Source: Thauera propionica (lineage in GTDB: Bacteria > Pseudomonadota > Gammaproteobacteria > Burkholderiales > Rhodocyclaceae). Taken from it: a stretch of 64,000 bases of DNA. The number at the start of each line of letters is the position of its first letter. Position 1 is the first letter of the stretch. The stretch is from positions 62,001 through 126,000 of the forward strand of contig NZ_NOIH01000008.1 in the NCBI RefSeq assembly GCF_002245655.1, in the 5' to 3' direction. Shown in pieces: positions 14,216 through 33,697 of the stretch. Under the pieces are notes generated by a model. That model saw only the letters and a program-made list of their open reading frames with translations. It searched no databases and was not told the origin of the DNA. Made by a program: the position numbers and the translations under genes.

Positions 14216-14219
14216 CTGA

Positions 14220-15941: not shown

Positions 15942-16025
15942 GGTCGCGCGGGTCGGGGACGATCCGCGCAATCTACGAGGCTGTCTGTTGGGGAAGCGTG
16001 ATGCGGGTGTGAGGAAAGTGTGAGT

Positions 16026-17360: not shown

Positions 17361-17997
17361 GGACGTTCACCACCTGAGTCGGGGCATCTTCGCCCAATGC
17401 ACGGCGCAGCGTATGAAGAACGCTGCGCAGGTTGTCGCTGCTGTCCTGTTCGTGGCCCCACACGGCAATCTCCAGCTCGCGCCGGGAGAACACCCGGTTG
17501 GGCTGGGAGAGCAGTTCGCCGAGCAGCCTCAGGGCTTTGGGTGGCAGGCTGAGCTGGCGCCCCTGCAGCCGTGCCTCCTGCGTTGCGCTGTTGAGTTCCA
17601 GTTCGCCGTGGCGCAGCACGGGGTTCGCCTGCCGGGCCTCGCTGCGCCGTCCCAGTGCGAGCAGGCGGACTTCGAGTTCCTGTAGCGCAAAGGGCTTCAC
17701 GAGATAGTCGTCGCAGCCGGACTCGAAGCCGAGCAGCTTGTCCTCCAGCGTTTCACGCGCGGTCAGGATCAGGATGGGCATTGCGTTGCCCTCGGCCCGT
17801 AGCCGGCGTGCAAGTGCAAGCCCGTCGCCGTCGGGCAGGTTGCGATCGAGGACGGCCGCGTCGAAGCGGCTGCGGGTCAACAGCGTGCTCGCCGTGGCGA
17901 GACAGTCGGCGTAGTCGCACTGGTGGCCACGGGACTCGAGGTACTCGTAGATGTTCTCGGCGATCGTGCGATCGTCTTCGATGATCAGCAAATGCAT
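17329..17997 (-). CDS. OmpR/PhoB-family response regulator, PmrA/QseB-like
   Basis: A 222-residue response regulator: receiver domain with acidic pair EDD near residue 7, phospho-accepting Asp in VLDRNLPDGDG near residue 51 and Lys in LVKPFALQELE near residue 103, followed by a winged-helix DNA-binding domain (residues about 125-220) ending in VHGLGYKLVSR. Its kinase partner is encoded immediately downstream. The array continues to eptA and a PAP2 phosphatase, so these are its likely targets. The upstream alkaline-phosphatase-like gene ends 48 bases before its start on the same strand, so co-transcription is possible. Confidence 0.92.
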   Translation of the reverse strand: MHLLIIEDDRTIAENIYEYLESRGHQCDYADCLATASTLLTRSRFDAAVLDRNLPDGDGLALARRLRAEGNAMPILILTARETLEDKLLGFESGCDDYLVKPFALQELEVRLLALGRRSEARQANPVLRHGELELNSATQEARLQGRQLSLPPKALRLLGELLSQPNRVFSRRELEIAVWGHEQDSSDNLRSVLHTLRRALGEDAPTQVVNVHGLGYKLVSR

Positions 17998-18045
17998 GAA
18001 GGCAAGATACTCCAGGCCGTTGGCTTGTGGAATGTGGCGAAGGGC

Positions 18046-19647
18046 TCAGTCCTGGCCGAATGCATCGAGCAGTTGGAGCGTCAGTGTGCGCATCGGGCCG
18101 AGGGCGGGAGGCTCGGGTGCGAGCCCGGGGCGAAAACCGCGGTTCAGTAGATGCGCCAGTACCGCTTCATTGCGCGTGATCACGTGCATCGGCACGTCCC
18201 AGTCCGCACCGGGGCCGGTCACGGTGCCCATGGGCTGATGGTCGCCGACCACGATCACGACGGCGTCGGCTGGTGCGTGTGAGGAAAGCCAGCCCGCCAG
18301 CCAGTCGAACTGGTAGCGCATGGCCGCGAGGTAGGCGGGGACCGGGTCGTCCCATGACACCGCTGCCTCGCGTGCGGCGACCGCATCGGGGCTGTCGTAG
18401 GCATCGGTGCCGAGCACGGCGGACCAGTCCGCCACATAGGGCGCCAGCGGGCGGAAAGGCGCGTGCGTGCTGACCGTCGGAAAAACCACCAGGCGCGGAC
18501 GATGATCTTCGCCCCGCGCCGGGCCGAGTTCCTGCGCCTGCAGCTGCGCCATCGAAGCCTGGTCGGGGATGCGCCAGTAGCCGAAGGGCGGGCCGCGGTA
18601 GCCGATGCCTTCGGCGTCGGCGATGCGGTCGAAGCCGTAGAAGCGGCCCTCGGGCCAGGGGCGCTGGATGCCCGGCATCCAGCCGACGGTGCGATAGCCG
18701 TGCGCGGCGAAGTGGCTGACCAGCGTAGGGCGCTGCGTCGTCAGCAGCAGGCGGTAGTCGTTGGGGGCGCGCATGTCGAGGCCGGACAGCAGCTCCGCGT
18801 GCGCCAGCCACGAGCCGCCGCCGAAGGTCGGGGAGGTGAGGCGGGCGGAGACGACGCTGCGCCCGCCGGCGGCAATGGCGTCAGCAAGCCGCTGGCGCGA
18901 GGCCGCAAGGCTGGCGGCGAAGTCGGGCTTGTCGAGCGTGATCGCGCCGTAGGCTTCGGCGAACACGATGACCACGTCGGCGCCCTCGAGCGCGCCGAGC
19001 GTGCCGGCGAACGCGGGACTGGTGCCCAGCAGGCGCTCGTCCTCGTCCGCGAAGACTGCCCGGTGCAGCATGCGCGCCTGGTCGGCGACGAGGCTGCCGA
19101 CGGCAGGGGCGAAGGCGCGCTGCAGGGCGGGTGCGAGCTGCAGCGCCAGCACCCCGGCGCCCAGCACGGCAACGGCGCCTGCCAGCACGCCGGCCCGGAG
19201 CGCCCGGTGCTGCAGACTTTCGGCGAGCACGACGACGCAGCGCCGGATCAGGCGGTAGAGCGCGGCGATGGCCAGCGCGACGATCACCGCCACGCCGGCG
19301 AACTTCATCGCCGACGGGCTGGCAGCGCCCATCTTCAGCACTTCCCAGGCGTGCTGCCCGTCCCAGTAGAGGTCGAGCCGTCGCCCGAGCACGGCCGGCA
19401 CGGTGACATTGATGTAGTGCAGCAGGACACCGGCCGAGATCACGGCCGAGGCCACGACGACGGCTGTACGGCGCAAGGGGCCGCGCAGGCTCAGCAGCGC
19501 CAAGGCCAGCACGATTGCGGCCAGGTCGATCGACAAACGCGCTTCCGGGCGCGGCCAGAGCGTCGGCCAGGCGTTGCCGAAGCTGAGCAGCAGGTTCAGC
19601 AGCACGAGGGCGACGAGGGCCTGGAGTACGGCGCGAGGGCTGTTCAT
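18046..19647 (-). CDS. Membrane-anchored alkaline-phosphatase-superfamily protein (LtaS/sulfatase-like)
   Basis: A 533-residue protein with about five N-terminal transmembrane helices (residues 5-170) and a periplasmic sulfatase/LTA-synthase-type domain. Metal and catalytic candidates are Glu231 in FAEAYG, Thr274 in SPTFGGGSW, and VVGDHQPMG near the end. Related proteins transfer phosphoglycerol or phosphoethanolamine to envelope glycans or lipids. It reads toward the response regulator-kinase-eptA-PAP2 genes on the same strand, and divergently from the creatininase-family gene 98 bases away, so it could belong to either neighbouring module. Substrate is unknown. Confidence 0.8.
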   Translation of the reverse strand: MNSPRAVLQALVALVLLNLLLSFGNAWPTLWPRPEARLSIDLAAIVLALALLSLRGPLRRTAVVVASAVISAGVLLHYINVTVPAVLGRRLDLYWDGQHAWEVLKMGAASPSAMKFAGVAVIVALAIAALYRLIRRCVVVLAESLQHRALRAGVLAGAVAVLGAGVLALQLAPALQRAFAPAVGSLVADQARMLHRAVFADEDERLLGTSPAFAGTLGALEGADVVIVFAEAYGAITLDKPDFAASLAASRQRLADAIAAGGRSVVSARLTSPTFGGGSWLAHAELLSGLDMRAPNDYRLLLTTQRPTLVSHFAAHGYRTVGWMPGIQRPWPEGRFYGFDRIADAEGIGYRGPPFGYWRIPDQASMAQLQAQELGPARGEDHRPRLVVFPTVSTHAPFRPLAPYVADWSAVLGTDAYDSPDAVAAREAAVSWDDPVPAYLAAMRYQFDWLAGWLSSHAPADAVVIVVGDHQPMGTVTGPGADWDVPMHVITRNEAVLAHLLNRGFRPGLAPEPPALGPMRTLTLQLLDAFGQD

Positions 19648-19745
19648 GAGGGGGCGCCGCTGGTGTCTGCGGTCCGCGGGGCTGGTCCGTCCGCGGCGGG
19701 CCGGCTAGCATGCGCCTCATCCCCAGGCACGATGGAGTGCGCCTC

Positions 19746-20582
19746 ATGTCCGACCAAACCGAGCGAAGCACCGCAAGTCCGTGGTGGCAGGAGTGCACGC
19801 CGCAGGAGATCGCCGCACGCGCTGCGGCCGATGGCGTCGCGCTGCTGCCGCTGGCCGCGATCGAGCAGCATGGCGAGCACCTGCCGTTGTCCACCGATCT
19901 CGACATCGCGCTCGGTCTCATCGACGCCGCCTTGCCGCGCGTGCGCGAGGGGCTGCCGGTGTGCGTGCTGCCGCCGCTGGCGGTAGGCCTGAGCCTCGAG
20001 CACTGCGGGTTTGCCGGCACGCTGAGCCTGAGCCCGGAGACGGCGCTGGCGGTCATCGTGGAGCTGGGCGAGCGCGTGGCCGCCGCGGGTTTCCGTCGCC
20101 TGGTGCTGTTCAACAGCCACGGCGGCAACAAGGCGCTGGTCGATCTGGCTGCGCTCAAGCTGCGCGCCACACGGCGGATGCTGGTCGTGCGCGCCAACTA
20201 TTTCCGCTTCGCGCCGCCGCCGGACGCGCTGCCCGCCGACGAACTGCGGCATGGCCTGCATGGCGGCGCGCTGGAGACGGCGATGATGCTGCACCTGGCG
20301 CCGGCCAAGGTGCGCATGGACCGCATCGCGCACTTCGACTCGCTCGGGCGGGAGATGGCGCGTGAGGGGTGGCTGTTGGGCCCGGAAGGCGAGGCCGGCT
20401 TCGCCTGGATGGCGCAGGACCTGAATGCGGGGGGCGTGACGGGCGATGCGCGCCTGGCCACGCCGGCCTTGGGTGCGCGCTTGGTCGAGCACTATTCCAG
20501 GCAGCTCGCGCGACTGATCGAGGACGCGCATGCGTTCGATCTCGCGCGCCTTGCCGACGGGCCGCTCGACGGCGCGGGCTGA
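19746..20582 (+). CDS. Creatininase-family amidohydrolase
   Basis: A 278-residue metal-dependent hydrolase of the creatininase/MftE/ArfB family. Metal and substrate residues are visible in EQHGEHLPLSTD near residue 40, FNSHGGN near 120 and LHGGALETAM near 170. Known members hydrolyse creatinine, trim the mycofactocin peptide, or remove formyl from a pyrimidine intermediate in archaeal flavin/F420 synthesis. Sitting beside GTP cyclohydrolase II and RibD-type reductase genes makes action on a pyrimidine or pterin amide plausible, but this is inference. The start MSDQTERS gives family length; a longer frame begins 36 bases upstream. Convergent with the cyclohydrolase gene, 32 bases apart. Confidence 0.85.
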   Translation: MSDQTERSTASPWWQECTPQEIAARAAADGVALLPLAAIEQHGEHLPLSTDLDIALGLIDAALPRVREGLPVCVLPPLAVGLSLEHCGFAGTLSLSPETALAVIVELGERVAAAGFRRLVLFNSHGGNKALVDLAALKLRATRRMLVVRANYFRFAPPPDALPADELRHGLHGGALETAMMLHLAPAKVRMDRIAHFDSLGREMAREGWLLGPEGEAGFAWMAQDLNAGGVTGDARLATPALGARLVEHYSRQLARLIEDAHAFDLARLADGPLDGAG

Positions 20583-20614
20583 GCTGCGGCCGCGCGCCAT
20601 CGTCGCTGTGCAGC

Positions 20615-21772
20615 TCAGCCGCGTGTGGCGGCCTCGGGGGCCGGCAGGCTTTCGGGTGTGGGCGAGGCAGGCTCGCCCTGTTCGTTGAGCAGCTCGTGCA
20701 GCCAGTGACCGTGACGGCTGGCCTTGGTCTTGAGGTAGCGCTGGTTCTGCTGCGTGACTTCGCCGTAGATGGCCTGGCGTGCGGTGACGTTGATGCCCGC
20801 GCGCTGTAGCGCCTCGACCTTGCTCGGGTTGTTGGTGAGCAGCAGGATGCGCGACACGCCCAGTTGCTCGAGCATCTCGTGGGCGACGCGGAAGTCGCGT
20901 TCGTCCTTCGAGAAACCGATCGTCTGGTCGGCGTCGATGGTGTCCAGGCCTTCGTCCTGCAGGCCGTAGGCACGCAGCTTGTTTGCCAGGCCGATGCCAC
21001 GTCCTTCCTGCGACAGGTAGAGCAGGATGCCGCCGCCTTGGGCGTTGATCGCCGCGACGCCGCGGCGCAACTGCTCGCCACAGTCGCAGCGCAGGCTGCC
21101 GAAGAGGTCGCCGGTGAGGCAGGACGAATGCAGGCGCACCGGCACGTCCTGCGGCCACTCGGCCGGGTTGCCGATGACGATGGCGACGTGTTCGTGGATG
21201 CCGTCGGCCTCGCGGAACAGTACGAAGCGGCTGTTCTCGGCCTCGGCCAGCGGCACGCGTGCCTCGCTGATGCGGGTCAGCGCGCCCGGGCCGCTGGCGC
21301 ACAGTTCGAGCGCGGTGTCGGCGTCGACCGACAGCAGGTTGCCGCGCGCCACTTCCGCCGCGATGTGCTCGGCTTGCGTCGGCGCCACCGGGCAGGCGAT
21401 GGCGGCGGGAACGAGCTGGGCGCGCGCCAGCAAGCGGATCGCCGCCTGGCTTGCCTTGTCGGCAACGGACTGGCGGGCGTTCGCCGGCAAGTGTGCGCCG
21501 CGCATGCAGGCGAACTCCCGCAGCTGCAGGCTGTCTGGGAGGGGCGACAGTGTGATCGCGACGGGCGCGGAGGCATCGGCGAAGCCCAGCGCGGCCATGC
21601 GGTGACTGGAGAGCACCAGGCGGGGCGCGGAGCCGCTAAGCGTCCGGAGTTCGGCCAGCGCCTTGTCGTCGAGGCCCTCGACGGCCTGGACGAGGGTGGT
21701 GCTGCCGTTGTCGCGCACGAGGATGGGAAGGCCGCGTCGCAGGTCGAAAATGGCACGTTCGGCTTGGCGCAT
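20615..21772 (-). CDS. GTP cyclohydrolase II, RibBA-like with a degenerate N-terminal domain
   Basis: A 385-residue protein. Residues from about 195 form a complete GTP cyclohydrolase II: zinc cysteines in HSSCLTGD and RCDCGEQL, SQEGRGIGL, and LRAYGLQD with the Tyr that in E. coli RibA is needed for the normal diaminopyrimidine product. The first 190 residues start like the DHBP synthase half of RibBA (FDLRRGLPILV) but the acidic DDEDRENEGD-type metal motif is absent, so that half is probably inactive. The likely product from GTP is the 2,5-diaminopyrimidine nucleotide plus formate. It is divergent from a RibD-type reductase and may serve a specialised pathway rather than riboflavin; housekeeping RibA cannot be excluded. 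Confidence 0.85.
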   Translation of the reverse strand: MRQAERAIFDLRRGLPILVRDNGSTTLVQAVEGLDDKALAELRTLSGSAPRLVLSSHRMAALGFADASAPVAITLSPLPDSLQLREFACMRGAHLPANARQSVADKASQAAIRLLARAQLVPAAIACPVAPTQAEHIAAEVARGNLLSVDADTALELCASGPGALTRISEARVPLAEAENSRFVLFREADGIHEHVAIVIGNPAEWPQDVPVRLHSSCLTGDLFGSLRCDCGEQLRRGVAAINAQGGGILLYLSQEGRGIGLANKLRAYGLQDEGLDTIDADQTIGFSKDERDFRVAHEMLEQLGVSRILLLTNNPSKVEALQRAGINVTARQAIYGEVTQQNQRYLKTKASRHGHWLHELLNEQGEPASPTPESLPAPEAATRG

Positions 21773-21870
21773 CGGGTGTTCTCCGTGGGAGTGTTCGGGT
21801 TTGTTTTTGGCGCGTGGGTTCCGCCGGGGCGGTGTGGGCAGGCGCAAACCGAATCAGTCGAGGTTGTCGG

Positions 21871-22719
21871 ATGTCAGGTACAAAACTAGGTCTAGATTGG
21901 GGCTGGCGCTGTATTTTGCAAGCCCGCGAGCACGATTGGTCCTTACATCCCGTCACAAGGTTCCGTGAGGGCGATCACTCGCTCGAGGTCCGTGTCGGCG
22001 GGGACTGGCGCTGCGAACATGCCTTGGCGGCCGAAGCCGTTGATCTGCTGTCGCTTTTTCTTCCGCTCGTGGCGCGCACCGGACCGCTTGCCATCGCCCA
22101 GCTTGGGCAAAGCCTGGACGGGCGCATCGCAACCGAAAGCGGGGCTTCGCACTATATCAACGGGTTGGAGGCACGCACACACCTGCACCGGCTGCGCGCG
22201 GTGGTGGATGCGGTGCTGGTGGGTGTGGACACGGTCAATGACGACGATCCGCAACTGACGGTGCGCCATGTGGCGGGGCGTAACCCGGTGCGCGTGGTGC
22301 TGGACCCGCGCGGGCGGGTGCGCCGGGGCAGCCAGCTTCTGCACGACGGGGCTGCGCTCACCGTGCATGTCGTTTCCGGCGCCGCGGGGGGCGATGACCT
22401 TGCCCCCGGGGTGGAGCGGGTCGTCTTGCCGGTGTCGGCGGAGGGCCGGTTTGACCCGGGCGCAGTGCTGGGTTGGCTGCAGACGCAGGGCTTGCGCAGC
22501 GTGCTGGTCGAGGGCGGAGGCCGCACGGTGTCGGCCTTCATGCACGCCCGTGGGCTCGACCGTCTGCACTTGCTGGTGGCGCCGTTGCTGATCGGCTCCG
22601 GCCGGCCGGGCCTGCAACTGCCGCCGGTCTTGACGCTCGACGAGGCCTTGCGTCCGCGCTGCCACAGCTACCGCTGCGGCGAGGACACCATCTTCGACCT
22701 GGAACTGCGCCGCAGCTAG
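21871..22719 (+). CDS. Stand-alone RibD C-terminal-type pyrimidine reductase
   Basis: A 282-residue protein whose residues from about 65 match the RibD reductase domain (DHFR-like fold) that reduces a ribosylaminopyrimidine using NADPH: AQLGQSLDGRIAT, LRAVVDAVLVGVDTVNDDDPQLTVR and VLVEGGGRTVSAF. The RibD deaminase domain with its HAE and PCxxC zinc motif is absent; instead there is a Trp-rich N-terminal stretch of about 65 residues without a recognised fold. The chosen ATG has GAGG seven bases upstream. It is divergent from the GTP cyclohydrolase II gene, and its stop codon overlaps, tail to tail, the stop of the membrane protein downstream. Confidence 0.83.
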   Translation: MSGTKLGLDWGWRCILQAREHDWSLHPVTRFREGDHSLEVRVGGDWRCEHALAAEAVDLLSLFLPLVARTGPLAIAQLGQSLDGRIATESGASHYINGLEARTHLHRLRAVVDAVLVGVDTVNDDDPQLTVRHVAGRNPVRVVLDPRGRVRRGSQLLHDGAALTVHVVSGAAGGDDLAPGVERVVLPVSAEGRFDPGAVLGWLQTQGLRSVLVEGGGRTVSAFMHARGLDRLHLLVAPLLIGSGRPGLQLPPVLTLDEALRPRCHSYRCGEDTIFDLELRRS

Positions 22720-23657
22720 GGCGTGCGCCGCGCCAGCACCCAGGCGCCGGGCAGGGTAGACAGCAGCACGACGAGGCCGTAGCTGATCGAGATCGCCACG
22801 CCCTGCGCCACGTCCAGTCCGGCGGCGGCCCACAGCAGCGCGGCGGCGCCTTCGCGCAGGCCCCAGCCGGCCATCGACAGCGGCAGCGCCATCGCCAGCA
22901 GCACCCAGGGAATCAGTGCCAGCAGGGTCGTGGCCGGCGTGTTGATGCCCAGCATGCGGGCACAACAGAAGTAGACGGCGATGTAGCTCGCGGTAATCGC
23001 CAGCGAGGCGAGCAGTTGCCGCCACAGCGCGTCGTGGGCGAGCAGCGCACGCTGGCCGGCATTCGCGAGGTGGCGCAGGAGTCCGCTTCGGCGCAGCACG
23101 AACAGCAGCAGCACGAGCGCCGCGCCGATCAGTGCGAGCCGTACCGGGAGCGAGGCCGCGCTGCTGTCCTGGTCGATGCCGGCGAATGCCCGGCCGAGGA
23201 TCTGCCCGATCACGGGCGAGAACAACAGGGTCGTGAGCGCGATCAGCAGCAGGGCGAACTGGCCGGAAGCGCGCTCCAGCACCACAGCCAGCCAGGCCGC
23301 GCGCGGACCGGGCGAGTCGGTGGCCTGCGTACGCGCGTGGCGCCAGGCGCGGCTGGCGTCGCCGAGCACGCCGCCCGGCAGCACCTGGTTGAGGAAACTG
23401 CCAAGGTAGTACTCGGCCAGGGCGCGGCCGAAAGGCAGGGGCGCATCGAGCCGGTGCGCGGTGAGCTGCCAGCGCCAGGCTGACAGGGCCATCTGCGGCA
23501 CGCCCAGCAGCAGCGCCGCCGCGAGCCAGCCGGGGGACGGCGCGACGAGGGCGGCGCGCAGGGCGTCGCGATCCAGCCAGGCGAACACGGCGGCCAGCAG
23601 GATGAGGCTGCCCAGGGCAGGCAGCAGGCGGGCGGCGAGGCGTCGGCTAGTGGCCAT
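22716..23657 (-). CDS. LPG-synthase-type membrane protein (UPF0104 family)
   Basis: A 313-residue polytopic protein with about seven or eight hydrophobic helices and the family hallmark segment FLNQVLPGGVLGDASRAWR near residues 90-110. It is the membrane part of lysylphosphatidylglycerol synthase without the aminoacyl-transfer domain. Relatives often accompany glycosyltransferases and are thought to flip or position lipid-linked substrates. Here it is the last gene of a minus-strand operon with a glycosyltransferase-methyltransferase, a PTPS-like protein and a dehydrogenase, 42 bases after the former. Role in exporting or holding a lipid-linked intermediate is inferred. Confidence 0.82.
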   Translation of the reverse strand: MATSRRLAARLLPALGSLILLAAVFAWLDRDALRAALVAPSPGWLAAALLLGVPQMALSAWRWQLTAHRLDAPLPFGRALAEYYLGSFLNQVLPGGVLGDASRAWRHARTQATDSPGPRAAWLAVVLERASGQFALLLIALTTLLFSPVIGQILGRAFAGIDQDSSAASLPVRLALIGAALVLLLFVLRRSGLLRHLANAGQRALLAHDALWRQLLASLAITASYIAVYFCCARMLGINTPATTLLALIPWVLLAMALPLSMAGWGLREGAAALLWAAAGLDVAQGVAISISYGLVVLLSTLPGAWVLARRTP

Positions 23658-23699
23658 TGCTATCCGGGCCAGCGGGCTGTGGCAAGGCGATCATCGGGC

Positions 23700-25658
23700 T
23701 CAGCGGCCTGGTGGCAGCGCCAGCAGGTCGAGGTGGCCGACCTCGATCCGCAATGCACCGCGCGCCAGTTCAGACAGGCGCCGACGGTGCCACGCGGCGA
23801 TGCGCTGGTGGGCCTCGGGGCACTGCTCGGCGGCAGCCTCTCGCCAGCCGTCCATCAGCGCACGGGCAAGGGCGGCTTGTGCAGGGGCGGTTGAGGACAG
23901 CCGCCACGGGCTGGGCGCCAGCGCCACCGCGAATCCCCGTGCCTGCAGCAGCGCGGCGAGGCGGGGGGCGGCGTCGGGGCCCAGCGCCCGGCCCGCGCCC
24001 TTGTCGCGACGCTGGTGGGCATTGAAGGCGGCGCGCACGAAGGCGTCCTCGGTCGCGTCGGCCTGACGAGCGCTGTCGGTGTTGTCGAGCGCCTCGATCC
24101 GCCAGTTCCCATCCACGCTCAGCGCGATCAGCAATGCGCAGCCGGCTTCGCGGCAGGCTTCGGCCAGACGCTGCAGCCAGCGCTCGTCGACCAGGTCGAG
24201 CAGGGCCGAGGCGGTGACGAGGTCGAAGCCGGCCAACAGGGACGGATCGAGTGTCTGGAGGTCGGCCACGCGCGCTTCGACCGCCAGTGCGTGGCCGTCG
24301 CGGTCGTTGAGGTGGTGGCAGCTCTCGACTGCACGCGCCAGCAGCGCGGGGTCGTGGTCGAGCAAGGTCCAGCGCTGCGGGCCGGGCAGGCGTGGGGCAA
24401 GGTAGTGCGGATTCGAGCCGCTGCCGGTGCCGAGATCGAGGATGCGCAGCGGACGCTGGCCGAGCGGCGCGAGCCAGTCGGCAGCGAGCGCATTCAGCCG
24501 CGGGTCGCGTGCCGCATGGTCGGCCGCGCGGCGCAGCGCGAGCCAGTCGGCATCGAACACGGTGTCGGGGTGGAGGCTTGAGGAGCAAGCGGGCGGAAGA
24601 CCGGACAGGCGCTCGAGCGCGGTCGCGAACGTGGCGCCGGCCTGCGTCCAGTCCGCCAGCCGCACGCGCGCCACGCGGGCGCCGTCGCGCAGCACGAGGC
24701 GTTCGACCGGGTTCGCCAGCAGCCGGCGCAGGGCCTGCGCCAGCGCGTCGATGTCGCCCGGCGGCACGGCGAGGCCGGTGCCGGGCGGCAGGGTGTCGGC
24801 GAGCGCGCCGCCCGTCGTGGTCAGCACCGGCAGGCCGGCGGCCAGCGCCTCGCTGATGACCATGCCATAGCCCTCGTAGTGCGAGGGCAGCACGAACAGG
24901 TCCGCGGCCGCATAGGCGGCGTGCAGCTCGGCTTCGGCGCATTCGCCGCGCAGGCGGATGCGATCCTCGAGGCCGTGGCCGAGGATGAGCGCGGCGACGC
25001 GGTCGGCGTGGCGAGGGTCGCGGGTCGCGCTGCCGACGAAATCGCCCTGCCAGTGGAGATCCGCGACGCGGGCCAGAGCCTCGACCAGTACGTCATGCCC
25101 CTTGCGCGGGGTCAGCGTGGCGACGCACAGCAGGCGCGGCGGGGTGCGATCGGCTGCGGCGAGCGGCTGCGGGGCGACGCCCGGTTCGACGACCGTAATA
25201 CGGGCCGCGGCGACGCCCATGCCAGTGACCCGTCTCGCGGTGAAGCGGCTGGTGGTGATCACGCCGCGCATGGATTGCAGGGCCGCGGTTTCCTGGCGTT
25301 CGAAGCGGCGGGCCTGGTCCGCGTCCAGCCCGCGCTCGTCCGCCAGCGGGTGGTGCACCAGGGCGATCAGTCGCAGCCGCTGCGCGTGGGGCGCGACGGT
25401 CTCGGGCAGGCCGCCAAGCGCGAGTCCGTCGATCACGACGAGGCTGTCGTCCGGCAGCGAGGACAGCGCGGCGCGCAGGGCGTCGCGTGCGACCTCGTCC
25501 GCATCGGGGAAACGTCCGGCAAGCCCGATCACCTCGACCTGCCAGCCGCCGTGCCGCAGCTGCGCGACGATGTGCGCGTCGTACAGATAGCCGCCGGTGC
25601 GCTGCGCGGGATCGCCGGCGACGATGAAGGTGAGCCGCTGCATGCGCTCTGCGCTCAT
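23700..25658 (-). CDS. Fusion of GT4 glycosyltransferase and SAM-dependent methyltransferase
   Basis: A two-domain protein of about 652 residues. The first 350 residues are a GT-B glycosyltransferase of family 4 type: N-terminal GGYLYD region, CVATLTPRKGHDVLVEA, and HYEGYGMVISEALAAG with the two Glu of the E-x7-E nucleotide-sugar motif. From about residue 370 a class I methyltransferase follows, with the SAM loop ILDLGTGSGSN and an acidic second motif LLDHDPALL. Acceptor, sugar and methyl target are unknown. ATG codons at 25679 and 25643 are alternative starts. It follows the PTPS-like gene closely, so glycosylation and methylation of that pathway's product is inferred. Confidence 0.85.
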   Translation of the reverse strand: MSAERMQRLTFIVAGDPAQRTGGYLYDAHIVAQLRHGGWQVEVIGLAGRFPDADEVARDALRAALSSLPDDSLVVIDGLALGGLPETVAPHAQRLRLIALVHHPLADERGLDADQARRFERQETAALQSMRGVITTSRFTARRVTGMGVAAARITVVEPGVAPQPLAAADRTPPRLLCVATLTPRKGHDVLVEALARVADLHWQGDFVGSATRDPRHADRVAALILGHGLEDRIRLRGECAEAELHAAYAAADLFVLPSHYEGYGMVISEALAAGLPVLTTTGGALADTLPPGTGLAVPPGDIDALAQALRRLLANPVERLVLRDGARVARVRLADWTQAGATFATALERLSGLPPACSSSLHPDTVFDADWLALRRAADHAARDPRLNALAADWLAPLGQRPLRILDLGTGSGSNPHYLAPRLPGPQRWTLLDHDPALLARAVESCHHLNDRDGHALAVEARVADLQTLDPSLLAGFDLVTASALLDLVDERWLQRLAEACREAGCALLIALSVDGNWRIEALDNTDSARQADATEDAFVRAAFNAHQRRDKGAGRALGPDAAPRLAALLQARGFAVALAPSPWRLSSTAPAQAALARALMDGWREAAAEQCPEAHQRIAAWHRRRLSELARGALRIEVGHLDLLALPPGR

Positions 25659-25689
25659 CGACCGTCCCGATGCCGGCATTCGCGCAGCC

Positions 25690-26088
25690 TCACAGCGCGC
25701 CTTCGTAGCTCGCCCAGGCGATGTGCGATTCGTGCAGCGTCACCTTCAGCCGTTCCAGGCCGCGGCCGCCTTCGCCCAGACGGCCGTCGCGAATCGCAGC
25801 TGCAAGCCGGTCGAAAACCACGCGCGCCATGAACTCGGTGGTGGTGTTCCTGCCCGTGAAGGCCGGCTCATCGTCGAGGTTGCGGAAGTTGAACTCGGCC
25901 AGCACGGACCGCAGCGTGTCGCTCGCCAGGCCGATGTCGACCACCAGCCCGTCCGCGTCCAGTTCGGTGCGCTGGAAGGTGGCGTCGATCAGGTAGGTGG
26001 CGCCGTGGACGCGTTGCGCCGGGCCGAAGATCTCGCCGCGGAAGCTGTGGGCAATCATGATGTGGTCGCGAACGGTCAGAGCGTACAT
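25690..26088 (-). CDS. 6-pyruvoyltetrahydropterin synthase/QueD-like protein lacking canonical catalytic residues
   Basis: A 132-residue T-fold protein. Alignment by eye to E. coli QueD is clear along the chain: the first zinc His is in MIAHSF (residue 14), and the last pterin-anchoring Glu in TLHESH is kept. But the CGRLHGH segment reads AQRVHGA, so the catalytic Cys and one zinc His are Ala, and LDHHYLND reads FNFRNLDD, so the Asp-His relay is gone. Canonical PTPS or QueD chemistry is therefore unlikely; the fold probably does another job on a related compound. It is the second gene in a four-gene minus-strand operon. No queuosine genes are nearby. Confidence 0.82.
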
Positions 26089-26115
26089 GGGTGTGTCTCG
26101 TGAAAGTGGGGAGAG

Positions 26116-27123
26116 TCAGCGCTGCGGATAGCGGATGCGGTGACACAGCGCGCCGGCGGGCGAATACGCCAGCCGGTGCATCGTGGCCGGCAGGTCGGCG
26201 AAATCGCTCTCGCCGCTGATCAGCACGTCCGGCACGCTATCGACGAGCAGGGCCAGCGCGAGTTCCATGCGCCGGCGATAGTTCCAGCGCGGCAGGCGCT
26301 GCGGCGGCAGGTGGCCGACCTGGCTCGAGCGCAGGCTGAGGCGGCGGGCGTGGAAAGCCTCGCCCAGCGCAAGCGGCACGGCGCGCTGGCCGTACCAGCT
26401 CATCTCGATCACGCTGGCTTCCTGGCCGGCGAGGGTAAGCGCCGTCGACAGGCCTGCCGGCGCGCCGCTGGCGTGGAAGACGAAGTCGCAGTCGCCCGTG
26501 GCCGCGCCTGGCTCGGCGAAGCGGGCCCCGAGGGACTTTGCCAACTCGGCCCGGCCGGGATCGACGTCGATCAGCTGCACCTCGGTCCCGGGAATGCGCG
26601 CGCACAGCCAGGCCACCAGCGCCCCGACCACGCCGGCGCCGACCACCGCGATGCGGTCGCCGACGGAGGGTGCGCCGTCCCACACGGCGTTGATCGCGGT
26701 CTCCAGGTTGGCTGCCAGCACGGCGCGTTCGCTCGGCACGGCGTCGGGCACCACCACCACGGCGCTTGCGGGCACGACGTAGGCCTGCTGGTGCGGATGG
26801 AGGCAGAACACGCGGCGACCGACGAGCGCTTCGGCCTGCGCGCCGCAGCCGGCTTCGACCACGCCGACGTTGATGTAGCCGTACTTCAGCGGGCCGTCGA
26901 ATTCGCCTTCCTGGAAGGGCGCGCGCATGCGCTGGTGTTCGCTCGGCGGCACTTCGCCGCGGTAGACCAGGCCCTCGGTGCCGCGACTGATCGCGCCGAA
27001 GAGGCTGCGCACGCGCACCTCGCCGGGCGAGAGCGGCGGCAGTGCCACCGGGCGCAGTTCGCCATGGCCGGGCGGCAGGGTCCAGAATGCGAGCGGATGG
27101 TCAGCAGAGGGGGCGGAAGGCAT
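26116..27123 (-). CDS. Medium-chain dehydrogenase/reductase without the catalytic zinc site
   Basis: A 335-residue two-domain oxidoreductase. The N-terminal GroES-like domain has FGAISRGTEG where zinc alcohol dehydrogenases have a Cys-containing GICGSD motif, so the catalytic zinc ligand is missing; this ISRGTE version resembles BchC-type dehydrogenases. The NAD(P)-binding Rossmann motif is VVGAGVVGALVA near residue 155, with the acidic LIDVD strand after it favouring NAD. Substrate is unknown. It is the first gene of the operon continuing into the PTPS-like, glycosyltransferase-methyltransferase and membrane genes, 27 bases before the next. An upstream in-frame ATG at 27192 is less likely. 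Confidence 0.82.
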   Translation of the reverse strand: MPSAPSADHPLAFWTLPPGHGELRPVALPPLSPGEVRVRSLFGAISRGTEGLVYRGEVPPSEHQRMRAPFQEGEFDGPLKYGYINVGVVEAGCGAQAEALVGRRVFCLHPHQQAYVVPASAVVVVPDAVPSERAVLAANLETAINAVWDGAPSVGDRIAVVGAGVVGALVAWLCARIPGTEVQLIDVDPGRAELAKSLGARFAEPGAATGDCDFVFHASGAPAGLSTALTLAGQEASVIEMSWYGQRAVPLALGEAFHARRLSLRSSQVGHLPPQRLPRWNYRRRMELALALLVDSVPDVLISGESDFADLPATMHRLAYSPAGALCHRIRYPQR

Positions 27124-27239
27124 GCGGTCGGTCCGGATGGGCGGGAGGAATGCAGGCACGCCGAGCGTCGCGGCAGGCAGCGATCGGCGCATGTCGGGTT
27201 GCAGCGAACCACCGCCACGGGCGGTGGGTCTGAACGCGC

Positions 27240-27992
27240 ATGAACAAGCATAGCCCGACTCCCGATGCCGGCGCAGCGGCGCGCGCTGTGGGCGTGCCGC
27301 CCGCGTGGGCGGAGCTCGCGGCCGGCGCCGTCGTGCTGGTGCTCATGCTGGGGGCCTTGCATGGCGCATTGGCCTGGCCGCTGGGCGCCGCAGGGTTGGC
27401 GCTCGCCGTCTATGCTGCAATGGCGGGGCTGGTCTGGCGCTACTGGCCGGATGCGCGCCGCGGACTGGGGCCAGCGAACCGCGTGACCCTGTTGCGCGGC
27501 ACGCTGGTGGCGATCCTGGCAGGGGCGCTCGCGGGCTTCCCGGTCCTGGCGGGACAGGCGGGATGGCTGGCCGCACTGGCGTTGGCGGCGCTGGCGCTGG
27601 ACGGCGTGGATGGCTGGGCGGCGCGGCGCTGGCGGTGCGCCAGCGCATTTGGCGCGCGCTTCGACATGGAGCTGGACGCCTTCCTGATCCTGGTGCTGTG
27701 CGGCCTGCTGCTGGCGCTGGGCAAGGCGGGCGCTTGGGTGCTGGCGATTGGGGCGATGCGCTACGTGTTCGTCGCCGCGATGGCCGCGTGGCCCTGGCTG
27801 GATGCGCCCTTGCCGGAGCGCTGGCGGCGCAAGGCGGTGTGCGTGTGGCAGGTGGCGAGCCTGCTGCTGTGCCTGTTGCCGCAGGTCGGGGCCAGTCTGG
27901 CCGGCGGCCTGCTGGGTCTTGCGCTGGTGCTGCTGGGGTGGTCGTTTGCGGTCGATGTGCGCTGGCTGTATCGCCACAGGCCGCGGCCTTGA
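27240..27992 (+). CDS. CDP-alcohol phosphatidyltransferase family membrane protein
   Basis: A 250-residue polytopic membrane enzyme. The diagnostic DG-x2-AR-x8-G-x3-D-x3-D motif is complete, starting at DGWAAR near residue 125 and ending in GARFDMELD. Members condense a CDP-activated lipid or polyol with an alcohol, releasing CMP, as in phosphatidylglycerol-phosphate or phosphatidylinositol-phosphate synthesis. It is divergent from the dehydrogenase gene, 116 bases away, and could supply or consume a lipid head group in the same pathway; that link is inferred from position. The yceI gene follows 26 bases downstream. Confidence 0.85.
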   Translation: MNKHSPTPDAGAAARAVGVPPAWAELAAGAVVLVLMLGALHGALAWPLGAAGLALAVYAAMAGLVWRYWPDARRGLGPANRVTLLRGTLVAILAGALAGFPVLAGQAGWLAALALAALALDGVDGWAARRWRCASAFGARFDMELDAFLILVLCGLLLALGKAGAWVLAIGAMRYVFVAAMAAWPWLDAPLPERWRRKAVCVWQVASLLLCLLPQVGASLAGGLLGLALVLLGWSFAVDVRWLYRHRPRP

Positions 27993-28018
27993 TGGATTCT
28001 TATGGAGGAGGAGTCGAG

Positions 28019-28627
28019 ATGAAGCTTTCACGTCCAGTCCAAAGTGCGCGCGCAGCCCTGGTCGGACTGGTTGTCGCCGCGGCGATGGTCGGTCCGGCCC
28101 GCGCCGAGCCGCGCACCTACCAGATCGACCCCGATCATTTCTCGATCGCCTTCAGTGTGCGTCACCTTGGCTTTGCCGACACCATCGGCCTGTTCCTGAA
28201 AGGTAGTGGCAGCTTCGTGTATGACGAACAGACGCGCGCGCTGAGTTCGGCCCGCGTGGTGGTGAAGGCCGACAGCGTATTCACCAACCACGGTGCGCGC
28301 GACAAGCACGTGCGCGACAGCGATTTTCTCGATGCGAAGGCGCATCCGGAGATCGTGTTCGAGGCCACCGGTTTCGAGCCGGGCGCAGATGGCAGCGGCA
28401 CACTTTCGGGCAGGTTGACCCTGCTCGGCCAGACGCACCCGGTCGCGCTGGATGTGCGCCTGAACAAGTCGGGCGCCTATCCCTTTGGTCACCGCAAGCA
28501 CACGCTGGGCATCTCGGCGAGCACGACGATCAAGCGCAGCCAGTGGGGCATGGACTACGGCGTCGACCGCGGCATGGTGGGTGACGAGGTGAAGCTCAAC
28601 TTCGAGATCGAGGCGCTGCGCGACTGA
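28019..28627 (+). CDS. YceI-family periplasmic lipid-binding-like protein
   Basis: A 202-residue secreted protein: signal peptide residues 1-26 (cleavage near ARA|EPRTYQ) and a lipocalin-like YceI barrel with YQIDPDHFSIAFSVRHLGF at its start, split here as YQIDPDHFSI and the following strands, and SQWGMDYG near the end. YceI proteins bind polyisoprenoid or other amphipathic ligands and are often base- or stress-induced. GGAGGAG lies at the right distance before this ATG, fixing the start. It is close behind the phosphatidyltransferase gene on the same strand, so an isoprenoid or lipid ligand from that pathway is conceivable. Confidence 0.9.
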   Translation: MKLSRPVQSARAALVGLVVAAAMVGPARAEPRTYQIDPDHFSIAFSVRHLGFADTIGLFLKGSGSFVYDEQTRALSSARVVVKADSVFTNHGARDKHVRDSDFLDAKAHPEIVFEATGFEPGADGSGTLSGRLTLLGQTHPVALDVRLNKSGAYPFGHRKHTLGISASTTIKRSQWGMDYGVDRGMVGDEVKLNFEIEALRD

Positions 28628-28642
28628 TACTGCCCCGCAGCC

Positions 28643-29722
28643 TCAGCCGCCGATGTAGGACATCTCGATCTTGCGTAGCGCGGCGGTCTCGGCGGTACGG
28701 ATCTCCGAGTAGCGATCCTCGCGGCCTTGCCACACGTGGGCGATCGCCGCGTCCAGCGCCGCGTCGTCGGCCCCGGCGCGCAACAGGCTGCGCAGATCGT
28801 GGCCGGTCTGCGCGAACAGGCAGGTGTAGAGCTTGCCTTCGGTCGACAGGCGGATGCGGGTACAGGTGGAGCAGAAGGCCTGCGTGACCGAGGAGATCAC
28901 GCCGATCTCGCCCGCTCCGTCCTTGTAGCGCCAGCGCTCGGCGACCTCGCCAGTGTAGTTCGGGTCGACCGGCTCCAGCGGGTACAGGCGGTCGATGCGG
29001 GCGACGACGGCCTGCGAGGGCAGCACCTCGTCCATCTTCCAGCCGTTGGAGGCGCCCACGTCCATGAATTCGATGAAGCGCAGGATGTGGCCGCTGTGGC
29101 GGAAATGCGCCGCCATCGGCTCGATGTCGCTGTCGTTGGTACCGCGCTTGACCACCATGTTGACCTTGATCGGTCCGAGGCCCACCGCCTGCGCGGCGGC
29201 GATGCCTTCCAGCACCTTCCCGACCGGGTAGTCGGCGTCGTTCATGCGGCGGAACAGGGCGTCGTCCAGCGCATCCAGGCTGACGGTGACGCGGTGCAGA
29301 CCGGCGTCCTTCAGCGAGCGCGCCATCTTCGGCAGCAGCACGCCGTTGGTCGTCAGCGTCACCTCCACGCCGTCGAGTCGGGCCAGCATCTCGATCAGCC
29401 GTTCCACGTTCTTGCGCAGCAGCGGTTCGCCGCCGGTGATGCGGATCTTCTTCACGCCGCGCGCGACGAACAGCTTCGCCACCCGCAGGATCTCCTCGAA
29501 GCTCAGCAGATCACGCCGTGGCAGGAAGGCATAGTCGTCGTCGAACACCTCGCGCGGCATGCAGTAGATGCAGCGGAAGTTGCAGCGGTCAGTGACCGAG
29601 ATGCGCAGGTCGCGCACGCTGCGTCCGCGGCGGTCGAACAAGGCCTCGCCCGCTGCGGGCACGTTCTCCCGTGCGTCGACCGGGATGGCGGCGGGGGCGT
29701 CGTGGATGGGGATGACTTTCAT
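28643..29722 (-). CDS. moaA: GTP 3',8-cyclase MoaA (molybdenum cofactor synthesis)
   Basis: A 359-residue radical-SAM enzyme starting molybdopterin synthesis from GTP. The N-terminal cluster cysteines are Cys47, Cys51 and Cys54 in CNFRCIYC; the C-terminal second cluster is in [19 protein letters not shown] with the spacing typical of MoaA; the chain ends in the functionally important Gly-Gly. Length is slightly above the family norm because of about 30 extra N-terminal residues. No other molybdopterin genes are adjacent. It converges with yceI, 15 bases apart, and diverges from the Lon-like protease gene. Confidence 0.96.
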
Positions 29723-29888
29723 GTTCTTGTGGCTGCTGGGGTGTGCGGATTATGGGTAGCGGCGTGGCGCGGTGCAATGATGCCGGTCAATCTTCGACTG
29801 CGACCGCGGCCCCGGGTGCCCGGGGGCGCTGGAGCGGCGGTGTATCATTCGCCACCGGATCGAATCCGGCTTCTGGAGAACAACGACG

Positions 29889-32318
29889 ATGGCCGAACCT
29901 GTGGCCCTGCCGGCATCGGCACTGCGCACCTACTGCGACCCCGCCTGTTTCACTTTCGACACCACCGAATCCCTTGCCGATCACGCCGGTGACCTCGGCC
30001 AGGCCCGCGCCGTCGAGGCCATCCAGTTCGGGCTGGCCATGGGCCACAGCGGCTACCACGTGTTCGTACTGGGCGAGCCGGGCAGCGGCAAGCATGCCAC
30101 TACCTTCCGCCTGCTGCGCGAGCGCGCGGCGAGCGAGCCGGTGCCGCCCGACCTGTGCTACCTGCACAACTTCGACGAGGCGCTGAAGCCAAAGTTGCTG
30201 ACCTTGCCGGCAGGTCGGGGCGCGGCGCTGCGTGCCCACATGCAGACCTTCATCCGCGAGCTGGGGCCGGCGCTGGGGGCAGCCCTGGACAGCGACGCCC
30301 ATACCGAGCGCGTCGAGGCCCTGCAGACCGCGCACAAGGCGCGCGAGGAAGGCGCGTTGAAGGAACTGAGCGAGGGCTGCGCGGCCGAGTCGATCTCGCT
30401 GCTGCAGACGCCGGAAGGCTTTGTCTTCGCGCCCACGCGCGAGGGCGAGGTGATGTCGCCCGAAGCGTTCGAGGCGCTGCCCGAGGCGGAGCGCAACGCC
30501 ATCGAGGCCCGCGTCACCGCCTGGAGCGAGAAGCTCGAGGATCTGCTCAACGATTTCCCCGGCTGGCGCAAGGCCGTGCGCGAGTCGATCGAACGCGCCG
30601 AAACCGAGGTGCTCGGCCCCGCGGTTTCGCACCTGCTGCGCGAAGTCCGCGAGGCGCATGCCGACCTGCCCGAGGTGCTCGCCTTCCTCGACGCCGTGCA
30701 CAAGAACGTGCTCGACAGTGCGATCAAGGGCACGATGCTCGAGGAGGAGGACGAGGACATCGCCGAACCCGAGGAGGCGAGCCGCTACCAGCGCTACCAG
30801 GTGAAACTGCTGGTCGATCACTCGGCCTCGCAGGGGGCGCCGGTGGTGTTCGAGAACAACCCCGGCTACGGCAACCTGATTGGTCGCATCGAGCATGTGG
30901 TGCAGCAGGGCAACCAGGTCACCCACTTCAACCTGATCCGCGCCGGCGCGCTGCACCGCGCCAACGGCGGCTACCTGGTGGTCGACGCCGAACGCCTGCT
31001 GACCCAGCCCTACGCATGGGAGGGGCTGAAGCGCTGCCTGCGCGCGGGCGAGATCCGTATCGAGCCGCCGGCCGAGGCGCAGGGCTGGAGCGGCACGCTG
31101 ACGCTGGAGCCCGAGGCGGTGCCGAGCGCGCTGAAGGTGGTGCTGATCGGCGACCGCGACATCTACTACCTGTTGATGGACAACGACCCGGAGTTCGCCG
31201 ACCTGTTCAAGGTGGCGGCCGACTTCGACGACGACCTGCCGCGCACACCCGCGAACGAGTGCGAATACGCGCGCCTGATGGCGCTGCTGGTGCGCAGCGC
31301 GAAGTTGCTGCCGATTGACCGCAGCGGCGTGGCGCGGCTGGTAGAAGAGGGCGCGCGCCTGGCCGAGGACGCCGGGCGCCTGTCGCTGAACACGCGGGCG
31401 CTGTCCGACCTGATGCGCGAGGCCGACCACCAGGCCCGCCTGAAGGGTCTGGCCGCGACCGGGCGGGCCGAGGTTGAGGCCGCCTTGGCCGCGCGTGCCC
31501 GGCGCTGCAACCGCTATCCGACGCGGGTGCGCGAATCCATCCTCGACGGCACCACGCTGATCTCCACCGACGGTGAGCGTGCCGGCCAGATCAACGGACT
31601 GGTGGTGGTCGAACTCGCCGGCGAGCGCTTCGGCCACCCGGTGCGCATCACCGCGACGGTGCGCATGGGTGAGGGCGACGTCGTCGACATCGAACGCGAG
31701 ACCGAGCTGGGCGGCGCGATCCACTCCAAGGGCGTGCTGATCCTGTCGGCCTTCCTGGCGGCGCGCTACGCCCGCCACCAGCCGATGTCGCTGTCTGCCA
31801 GCCTGGTGTTCGAGCAGTCCTACGCGCCGGTCGAAGGCGACTCGGCCTCGCTGGCCGAGCTGTGCGCGCTGCTGTCGGCGCTGACGCAGATCCCGATCCA
31901 GCAGCGCTTCGCCATCACCGGTTCGGTGAACCAGTTCGGCGAGGTGCAGGTGATCGGCGGCGTCAACGAGAAGATCGAGGGCTTCTACGACCTGTGCATG
32001 GCGCGCGGGCTGGACGGCGGCCACGGCGTCGTCATTCCGGCCGCAAGCGTGCGACACCTAATGCTGCGTGAGGACGTCGTGCAGGCAGCGGCCGCGGGCC
32101 GGTTCCACATCTATGCGGTGAAGACGGTCGATGAAGCGATGAGCGTCCTGACCGGCGTGGCCGCGGGCGAGCCCGATTCGAAGGGCGTGATCCCGAAGGG
32201 CACGCTGAACCACAAGGTTGCCACCGTGCTGGCCGAGATGACGGCGGCGCGCCACGCGCATTCCGACGCCGAGGGTTCGGCCGGCTCGCGCCAGCACCGC
32301 CGCCGGCACGGGGTCTGA
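29889..32318 (+). CDS. Lon-like ATP-dependent protease (AAA plus S16 domain)
   Basis: An 809-residue protein with an N-terminal AAA module (Walker A GEPGSGKHA near residue 62), a long helical insertion around residues 130-290, a second AAA-like part (residues about 330-560) and a C-terminal S16 protease domain. The catalytic Ser lies in EGDSASLAEL and the Lys in GGVNEKIEGF, forming the Lon Ser-Lys dyad. It lacks the N-terminal LAN domain of LonA and corresponds to the Lon-related family annotated as ATP-dependent protease La-like. Substrates are unknown; it is cytoplasmic. It stands alone between moaA and a convergent gene. Confidence 0.88.
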   Translation: MAEPVALPASALRTYCDPACFTFDTTESLADHAGDLGQARAVEAIQFGLAMGHSGYHVFVLGEPGSGKHATTFRLLRERAASEPVPPDLCYLHNFDEALKPKLLTLPAGRGAALRAHMQTFIRELGPALGAALDSDAHTERVEALQTAHKAREEGALKELSEGCAAESISLLQTPEGFVFAPTREGEVMSPEAFEALPEAERNAIEARVTAWSEKLEDLLNDFPGWRKAVRESIERAETEVLGPAVSHLLREVREAHADLPEVLAFLDAVHKNVLDSAIKGTMLEEEDEDIAEPEEASRYQRYQVKLLVDHSASQGAPVVFENNPGYGNLIGRIEHVVQQGNQVTHFNLIRAGALHRANGGYLVVDAERLLTQPYAWEGLKRCLRAGEIRIEPPAEAQGWSGTLTLEPEAVPSALKVVLIGDRDIYYLLMDNDPEFADLFKVAADFDDDLPRTPANECEYARLMALLVRSAKLLPIDRSGVARLVEEGARLAEDAGRLSLNTRALSDLMREADHQARLKGLAATGRAEVEAALAARARRCNRYPTRVRESILDGTTLISTDGERAGQINGLVVVELAGERFGHPVRITATVRMGEGDVVDIERETELGGAIHSKGVLILSAFLAARYARHQPMSLSASLVFEQSYAPVEGDSASLAELCALLSALTQIPIQQRFAITGSVNQFGEVQVIGGVNEKIEGFYDLCMARGLDGGHGVVIPAASVRHLMLREDVVQAAAAGRFHIYAVKTVDEAMSVLTGVAAGEPDSKGVIPKGTLNHKVATVLAEMTAARHAHSDAEGSAGSRQHRRRHGV

Positions 32319-32332
32319 TCCAGTCCTTGGCG

Positions 32333-32372
32333 GACGGCGGGCAGAGCGGCTACACGCGCCGGGCCCGCCGTC
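32333..32372. repeat. 10-bp perfect inverted repeat between convergent genes
   Basis: GACGGCGGGC (32333-32342) and its exact complement GCCCGCCGTC (32363-32372) flank a 20-base loop between two convergent genes, reaching the stop of the minus-strand one. Its place suggests transcript-end protection or termination, but there is no T-run. Confidence 0.4.
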
Positions 32373-33686: not shown

Positions 33687-33697
33687 GGTGGTGCTTT

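Follow-up and report, generated by a model that had tools for sequence, protein, structure and literature searches.

A conserved gene cluster of Thauera propionica that may encode a pterin-type pathway

In archaea, a GTP cyclohydrolase that gives a formamide product (ArfA) works with a creatininase-family deformylase (ArfB), and a stand-alone pyrimidine reductase is found alongside. In Streptomyces coelicolor, we take SCO6655 to be a GTP cyclohydrolase II that leaves the formyl group on its product, and SCO6650 to be a protein without zinc and triad; the activity of the Met-form of GTP cyclohydrolase II was reportedly described by Spoonamore et al. in 2006. In this work we analyzed a window of 64,000 nucleotides from Thauera propionica (assembly GCF_002245655.1, contig NZ_NOIH01000008.1, positions 62,001 to 126,000), in which genes for a creatininase relative (CRN), the GTP cyclohydrolase II RibA, a stand-alone RibD reductase, a relative of 6-pyruvoyltetrahydropterin synthase (PTPS), a dehydrogenase (DH), a glycosyltransferase (GT) fused to a methyltransferase (MT), an LPG_synthase_TM membrane protein (LPGTM) and a CDP-alcohol phosphatidyltransferase (CDP) lie together. 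This gene set is real and widespread and most likely represents an undescribed pterin-type pathway; we consider it somewhat probable, judging from the gene families and their residues, that its product is a glycosylated and methylated pterin-like compound made from GTP, and in some lineages the product may be tied to the membrane.

Most biological pterins begin from GTP cyclohydrolase I, according to a review that also covers the pterin glycosides of cyanobacteria and the 2'-O-methylmonapterin proposed in Agrobacterium (PMC13259868). These bacterial pterins resemble the proposed product in being glycosylated and methylated, but the terms "GTP cyclohydrolase II" and "gene cluster" are absent from its text (PMC13259868). 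The pepteridine cluster of Photorhabdus also directs a pterin natural product and includes a 6-pyruvoyltetrahydropterin synthase homologue; in contrast with the locus studied here, it relies on a GTP cyclohydrolase I homologue and an acylation resembling that of nonribosomal peptide synthetases, and RibD is absent from the article's text (PMC5384830). Among the COG0720 subfamilies, the function of PTPS-V is called unclear (PMC5041015). QueD and the other PTPS-I proteins share the T-fold family with the window PTPS, which keeps two of the three zinc His and the Glu anchor but has lost the third zinc His and the Cys.

The likeness to the archaeal system lies in a GTP cyclohydrolase, a creatininase-family protein and a stand-alone reductase, here RibD, whose best matches in the PDB are the stand-alone reductases 6p8c and 2azn; the archaeal cyclohydrolase, however, belongs to another family, and here DH, PTPS, GT and MT are added whereas the creatininase is optional. 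SCO6650 matches the window PTPS over its full length, but most Streptomyces loci of our set, arranged as CDP-DH-PTPS-GT-MT-LPGTM-CRN-RibA, have no RibD and a RibA with Met at the catalytic position, while the window has RibD and a RibA with Tyr. The set differs from the riboflavin, queuosine, folate and molybdopterin pathways, as the preliminary description of this DNA had proposed, and from the biopterin pathway as well. In an open-access library we found neither a paper on the cluster nor one naming the SCO6650 and SCO6655 genes as a pathway, which is weak evidence of absence.

Conservation of the gene set

Families were read from Pfam and NCBIfam scans of the window proteins. With PTPS as the anchor, a collection holding one genome per species yielded at least 584 relatives, of which the best 80 were used; by record title these are 44 Pseudomonadota, 32 Actinomycetota, 2 Acidobacteria and 2 Gemmatimonadota, and the nearest named relative among them is a Thauera metagenome-assembled genome (L048, PTPS 84% identity). 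Sixty-four of the 80 loci span at least 20 kb and are referred to as long loci. Since the best 80 are the most similar ones, even genome draws were also made; their profile threshold was E 1e-20, and the prevalences in them are therefore lower bounds. In Pseudomonadota 27 of 398 genomes matched, the window included, which leaves 26 other loci; in Actinomycetota 23 of 296 matched, the centre genome included, which leaves 22. A class-level search of 274 genomes anchored on DH gave 16 matches, one of them the window's own genome, and a profile search found PTPS in 13 of the 15 others; the two misses are L020 and L029, the latter a contig of 7.9 kb.

All 64 long loci carry DH, PTPS, GT and MT; CDP is found in 60, LPGTM in 55, RibA in 47, CRN in 46, RibD in 41, an FkbM-type methyltransferase in 18, YceI in 17 and a sulfatase-like gene in 14. 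The even Pseudomonadota loci include DH (26), PTPS (26), GT (25), MT (24) and RibD (22), followed by CDP (12), LPGTM (11), RibA (11), FkbM (8), CRN (6), sulfatase-like (5) and YceI (4). For the even Actinomycetota loci the counts are GT 22, PTPS 22, DH 21, RibD 16, RibA 8, LPGTM 7, window-family MT 6, CDP 6, CRN 5 and sulfatase-like 1, the sole miss for DH being a 3.8 kb contig (L257). From the prevalences in the two even draws, the core of the set is RibD-DH-PTPS-GT-MT, and RibA, the creatininase, CDP and LPGTM are optional. The conserved set is real, but the eight families of the preliminary description are not one obligatory unit, given that CDP is present in only 12 and LPGTM in only 11 of the 26 core-keeping Pseudomonadota loci.

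The order CDP-DH-PTPS-GT-MT-LPGTM-RibD-RibA-CRN, with CDP, RibD and CRN reversed and members missing here and there, recurs in the four phyla, and the pairwise distances of DH and PTPS are correlated (Spearman 0.83). Co-location, order and catalytic residues are conserved, gene fusions occur, and the modules depend on the lineage. Two genomes of about 1 Mb (L027 and L028, completeness 96 and 99) have retained RibD-LPGTM-MT-GT-PTPS-DH-CDP-YceI; such retention would be unusual if the metabolite were dispensable.

Within the genus, each search examined 31 genomes, 19 of which are genus genomes. A RibA of the window type is present in 19/19, whether or not the genome has the cluster (identity 72-96% in the other 18), while the cluster PTPS is found in 11/19; the window RibA is thus the housekeeping GTP cyclohydrolase II of the genus. 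It stands at the edge of the cluster and is the only intact-looking GTP cyclohydrolase II of its genome: the other GTP cyclohydrolase II-like match, a neighbour of riboflavin synthase and RibH, has no zinc Cys motif (by eye), and the genes for riboflavin synthase, a RibBA-type protein and RibH are on another contig. In three of the eight genus genomes without PTPS, RibA lies at most 1.5 kb from MoaA, from which it is separated in the window by the 7 kb block running from RibD to YceI, so that this block was probably gained or lost beside ribA. In one of the eight (G289) a GT 63% identical to that of the window lies beside RibA, and represents either a remnant or an assembly gap. The creatininase accompanies the cluster PTPS in 11/11 genus genomes and is found in 4/8 of those without it (Fisher p 0.018).

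The housekeeping nature of the window RibA could be taken to mean that unrelated genes have come together by accident, as could a close relative (G290) in which PTPS lies about 45 kb from a RibD-RibA-CRN group. The recurrent order in four phyla and the co-location in both even draws refute this explanation, to which we assign a negligible probability; the co-location in other genomes on which the preliminary description had made its case depend holds in Pseudomonadota, Actinomycetota, Acidobacteria and Gemmatimonadota.

Residues and domains of the cluster proteins

By the residues presumed to act in the PTPS, DH, CDP, GT, CRN and RibD families, the tested cluster proteins look like working enzymes. 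The sole PDB match of the window PTPS is 3d7j, that is SCO6650 ("Uncharacterized protein"; 1e-56 over 132/132 residues), to which it is 66% identical and to whose type it belongs. In 103 sequences, the first and second zinc His are present in 103 each, the third is replaced by Ala in 99 and Thr in 1 and kept as His in 3, the catalytic Cys position holds Ala in 100 and Glu in 3, and the Glu anchor is invariant (103/103). With 40.9 bits against a cut-off of 89.25 for the QueD model of NCBIfam, and without the zinc site and catalytic Cys of QueD/PTPS-I, the window protein falls outside that group. Because the Glu anchor is kept while the third zinc His and the Cys are lost, it is neither QueD nor a decayed gene, and it looks like a PTPS turned to another task; the genome carries another PTPS. 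Most of the annotated plasmid records examined label the cluster protein as 6-carboxytetrahydropterin synthase.

Two further plasmids carry relatives of this protein. A Streptomyces anthocyanicus plasmid (L043, 9001-9426) has an SCO6650-type PTPS (58% identity) but neither DH, GT nor RibD; a very long hypothetical gene lies some 5 kb away, and the protein may have been reused in a different cluster. In an Agrobacterium tumefaciens plasmid (H14, CP048471.1, 11733-12128) a cluster-type PTPS (53% identity) occurs with a glycosyltransferase family 4 (GT4) gene under the match; this is the species for which 2'-O-methylmonapterin has been proposed (PMC13259868).

The dehydrogenase had been called zinc-less, and this agrees with the alignment of 104 sequences, in which Ser and Tyr replace the zinc Cys and His of the family in 104 each (by eye, at the positions presumed to bind zinc). 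The three Gly of the nucleotide site are conserved in 104 each. In NCBIfam its best match is BchC at 3e-15, followed by threonine and polyol dehydrogenases, all below the cut-offs. Both Glu of the E-x7-E motif of GT are kept in 97/100 sequences; GT and MT, fused in the window, are two genes in the annotated relatives. The sugar and methyl steps suggested earlier are in line with the near-constant presence of both families.

In 14 of the 22 even actinobacterial loci (L258-L271) a divergent form was found, with the order RibD, DH, PTPS, GT. Its PTPS scores lower and keeps the HxH of the zinc site (by eye); a methyltransferase of another family follows GT in 13/14, the miss being a 6 kb contig (L269), and 14/14 have genes for FolB (dihydroneopterin aldolase) and for a PlsC-like acyltransferase next to RibD. 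Single examples gave Pfam values of 7.7e-35 for FolB, 1.8e-8 for the acyltransferase and 2e-10 for the methyltransferase, and neither this FolB nor this methyltransferase had a match in the other loci searched. The 14 loci may be one clade, for which reason the divergent form counts as perhaps one event.

The preliminary description had named RibA as RibBA-like, a label that does not apply in the domain sense: Pfam recognizes GTP_cyclohydro2 alone (residues 167-332), preceded by an N-terminal extension without a RibB domain. Of the ten window proteins compared with NCBIfam, RibA alone scores above any cut-off, which it does with two general RibA models; its best score is with NF006456, "GTP cyclohydrolase II RibA" (342.6 bits, cut-off 464). 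It keeps the three Cys and the Tyr of GTP cyclohydrolase II. The position of E. coli Tyr105 is occupied across the loci by Tyr in 36, Met in 22, His in 3 and Ile in 1; the Met-type RibA belongs to 22 actinobacterial loci, and the window RibA is of the Tyr type and not of the SCO6655 type. Met at this position is presumably a marker of formamide-releasing activity. The creatininase accompanies non-Tyr RibA in 26/26 loci and Tyr-type RibA in 26/36 (Fisher p 0.0035, kinship ignored), and RibD accompanies Tyr-type RibA in 36/36 and non-Tyr RibA in 4/26 (Fisher p 4e-13, kinship ignored); most non-Tyr loci come from Streptomyces. All 11 RibA of a second set are of the Tyr type and have RibD, four with the creatininase and seven without it. 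This distribution agrees with a RibA that releases a formamide and a deformylase of the creatininase family acting together, in the non-Tyr lineages only, so that the earlier suggestion of a creatininase acting on formamides would apply to these lineages and is not needed for a RibA like that of the window. The creatininase keeps five putative metal positions in 55/55 sequences, and with scores below the NCBIfam equivalog cut-offs (MftE 121 of 172 bits, creatininase 82.5 of 235) it belongs to the wider Pfam family and is not creatininase or MftE proper.

Two related ideas were considered and rejected. The creatininase is not an obligatory deformylase of the window-type RibA, since four genus genomes without the cluster have this RibA and no creatininase match. 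A small residue in the RibA motif YLxQEG does not mark formamide release either: in the same four genomes the residue is S or T, and it is A in L216 and L218, whose loci have no creatininase.

The window RibD consists of the reductase domain only, with no deaminase domain in Pfam. In 69 sequences the Asp of SLDG is conserved in 68, a Pro in 69 and an Arg in 68. In two loci (L031 and L032) RibA and the RibD reductase (RibD_C) form a single open reading frame beside DH, with PTPS in the same locus.

RibA and RibD are both riboflavin enzyme families, and RibA is common to riboflavin synthesis in the genus; the product could accordingly be a ribityl-pyrimidine or a lumazine- or flavin-like compound made on the riboflavin side, with PTPS as a mere binding protein. 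We find this quite improbable, considering the missing deaminase domain, the presence of PTPS in 13/15 DH-anchored loci, the FolB beside the divergent form, and RibH and RibE, which were not recognised by eye among the recurrent neighbours, no dedicated search having been made.

A putative pathway and its membrane branch

The RibA-RibD fusions and the FolB gene indicate a GTP-derived pterin. A GTP-derived pyrimidine or pterin nucleus, put forward in the preliminary description, is still the best reading, to which the invariant Glu anchor of PTPS also contributes. In the pathway that we favor, RibA, encoded in cis or in trans, would open GTP to ribosylamino-diaminopyrimidine phosphate, and where RibA is devoid of the catalytic Tyr the creatininase relative may remove the formyl group. 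Judging by its family and by the fusions, the stand-alone RibD would reduce the ribosyl part with no prior deamination. The dehydrogenase, being nearest to BchC and polyol dehydrogenases, albeit at low scores, would probably oxidise a side-chain alcohol to a ketone. The SCO6650-type T-fold protein could bind the resulting pterin through its invariant Glu and assist ring closure, or a side-chain chemistry other than the PTPS/QueD reaction; GT4 would add a sugar and the methyltransferase a methyl group, as their families suggest. In many beta- and gammaproteobacteria and actinobacteria, CDP and the LPG-type protein are added and would bring the product onto the membrane or across it.

Several observations weigh against this pathway. 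RibA is part of the cluster in many lineages, and in the genus of the window it is housekeeping (19/19 genomes); RibA is present in only 11/26 and 8/22 loci of the even draws, and shows the lowest of eight correlations with DH distance (0.37). The RibD of the window scores 111 with the bacterial RibD model of NCBIfam and 101 with the archaeal reductase model. RibD is missing from 23 of the 64 long loci, 21 of them actinobacterial; a search of nine RibD-less genomes returned only two weak matches (E 3e-13 at best), and no replacement was recognised in the RibD-less actinobacterial loci, either among the recurrent unknown neighbours or by the genome search, so that the same chemistry cannot hold across all lineages. 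The FolB and PlsC genes that accompany the divergent form could reflect synteny inherited within a single clade. Flavin, folate and preQ1 riboswitches were found by Rfam neither in the window stretch (14000-34000, with no match of any kind at E 1) nor in 14 other loci, where the only matches were two thiamine pyrophosphate (TPP) riboswitches (L055) and three tRNAs (L049).

A more specific version would be a second pterin route without GTP cyclohydrolase I, in which RibD reduces C1', DH oxidises C2', and the ketone closes to a dihydropterin in the redox equivalent of an Amadori step, aided by the T-fold protein. The RibA-RibD fusions, the adjacency of RibD, DH and PTPS in 14/14 divergent actinobacterial loci, the low-scoring nearness of DH to BchC and polyol-type dehydrogenases and a PTPS without lyase residues but with its Glu anchor are consistent with such a route; the Streptomyces-type loci, which keep DH without RibD, speak against it as a general scheme, and the chemistry is our own inference. 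We regard it as rather unlikely. Slightly less probable again is the full scheme, in which GTP cyclohydrolase II, a deaminase-free RibD, DH and the T-fold protein would build a dihydropterin without GTP cyclohydrolase I in at least four phyla, with a sugar, a methyl group and, in the long form, a link to membrane phospholipid. If true, a pterin independent of GTP cyclohydrolase I would add a class of its own to the pterin cofactors, redox carriers or signals of bacteria.

Regarding the membrane, seven tested positions of what we take to be the CDP-alcohol phosphatidyltransferase signature, DGx2ARx8Gx3Dx3D, are invariant in 91/91 sequences, and the signature is present in the window. The lipid-linked product of the preliminary description finds a basis in the long loci, with CDP in 60/64 and LPGTM in 55/64, but of the 26 even Pseudomonadota loci, which keep the core, 14 have no CDP and 15 no LPGTM. 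Only in the long form may there be a lipid link. The product itself might be a phospho- or glycolipid whose head group comes from GTP, with CDP making it and the LPG-type protein moving it, a proposal that we consider less likely than not. It draws on the CDP signature and the long loci, on CDP being present in every LPGTM locus of the even Pseudomonadota draw (11/11), on the PlsC-like acyltransferase beside the divergent form (14/14) and on the sulfatase-superfamily membrane protein of 14/64 long loci; the Pseudomonadota misses count against it, as do those among the 22 actinobacterial loci, where CDP is absent in 16 and LPGTM in 15 (two of these loci are below 7 kb). The two genes are also not strictly coupled, since LPGTM occurs without CDP in L063 and L071, and CDP without LPGTM in several loci, including L080 and L101. 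Core loci without CDP and LPGTM imply that the core works without the membrane genes and, these being optional, the lipid link would be lineage-dependent.

The short form was also seen on two alphaproteobacterial plasmids together with a PfkB/ribokinase-type kinase (L046, 6834-7754; L047, 10997-11887), L047 having in addition an inositol monophosphatase-family gene; a possible role of these genes is the handling of a side-chain phosphate. In L042 (12055-12582) and L040 (12528-13085) an annotated cytochrome b gene adjoins RibD, which together with the YceI of other loci may hint at a membrane redox link.

Arrangement of the locus and its meaning

All eight families of the preliminary description, placed within 19.7-28.0 kb, were recovered by Pfam and NCBIfam, and its tight spacing and overlapping ends were borne out: DH, PTPS, GT-MT and LPGTM follow one another in the same direction, separated by 27, 31 and 42 bases, and RibD and LPGTM share 4 bases at their ends (Table 1). 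RibA/RibD and DH/CDP are divergent pairs. As to the extent of the cluster, the genes given were real, but the conserved neighbourhood is wider, with the sulfatase-superfamily gene and YceI recurring in other genomes.

Table 1. Genes of the cluster and its borders, in window coordinates
Feature	Position	Strand	Match or remark
Membrane protein, sulfatase superfamily (accessory)	18046-19647	-	PF00884 1.1e-5, barely above cut-off
Creatininase-family amidohydrolase, CRN (optional module)	19746-20582	+	PF02633 3.7e-65
GTP cyclohydrolase II, RibA	20615-21772	-	PF00925 1.5e-55
Stand-alone RibD reductase (core in most lineages)	21814 (or 21871)-22719	+	PF01872 4.3e-37; ATG at 21871 is the likelier start
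LPG_synthase_TM / flippase-like membrane protein, LPGTM (optional)	22716-23657	-	PF03706 6.8e-36
GT4 fused to class I methyltransferase, GT-MT (core)	23700-25658	-	PF13692 1.3e-30 at 174-316; PF13649 1.5e-8 at 406-503
PTPS-like T-fold protein, SCO6650 type (core)	25690-26088	-	PF01242 1.8e-23
Zinc-less medium-chain dehydrogenase/reductase, DH (core)	26116-27192	-	ADH_zinc_N 1.6e-4, below cut-off; alternative ATG at about 27123
CDP-alcohol phosphatidyltransferase, CDP (optional membrane module)	27240-27992	+	PF01066 4.9e-16
YceI-like protein (accessory)	28019-28627	+	PF04264 1.9e-41

The G+C content of the window is 67%. A promoter scan returned 0 promoter-like sites, and 5 terminator-like sites were counted versus 3.0 (standard deviation 1.9) in shuffles. 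In the Halomonas locus L055, the two TPP riboswitches (6274-6385 and 7213-7336) lie close together near YceI and CDP.

The wide and tight conservation of the set, even in the two genomes of about 1 Mb, indicates that the product should be useful to the cell. The split into a core and modules gives a natural comparison of short-form and long-form strains. Knowing the product would extend GTP-derived metabolism by a branch, correct the common misannotation of the cluster PTPS as 6-carboxytetrahydropterin synthase, and explain the purpose of SCO6650-type proteins.

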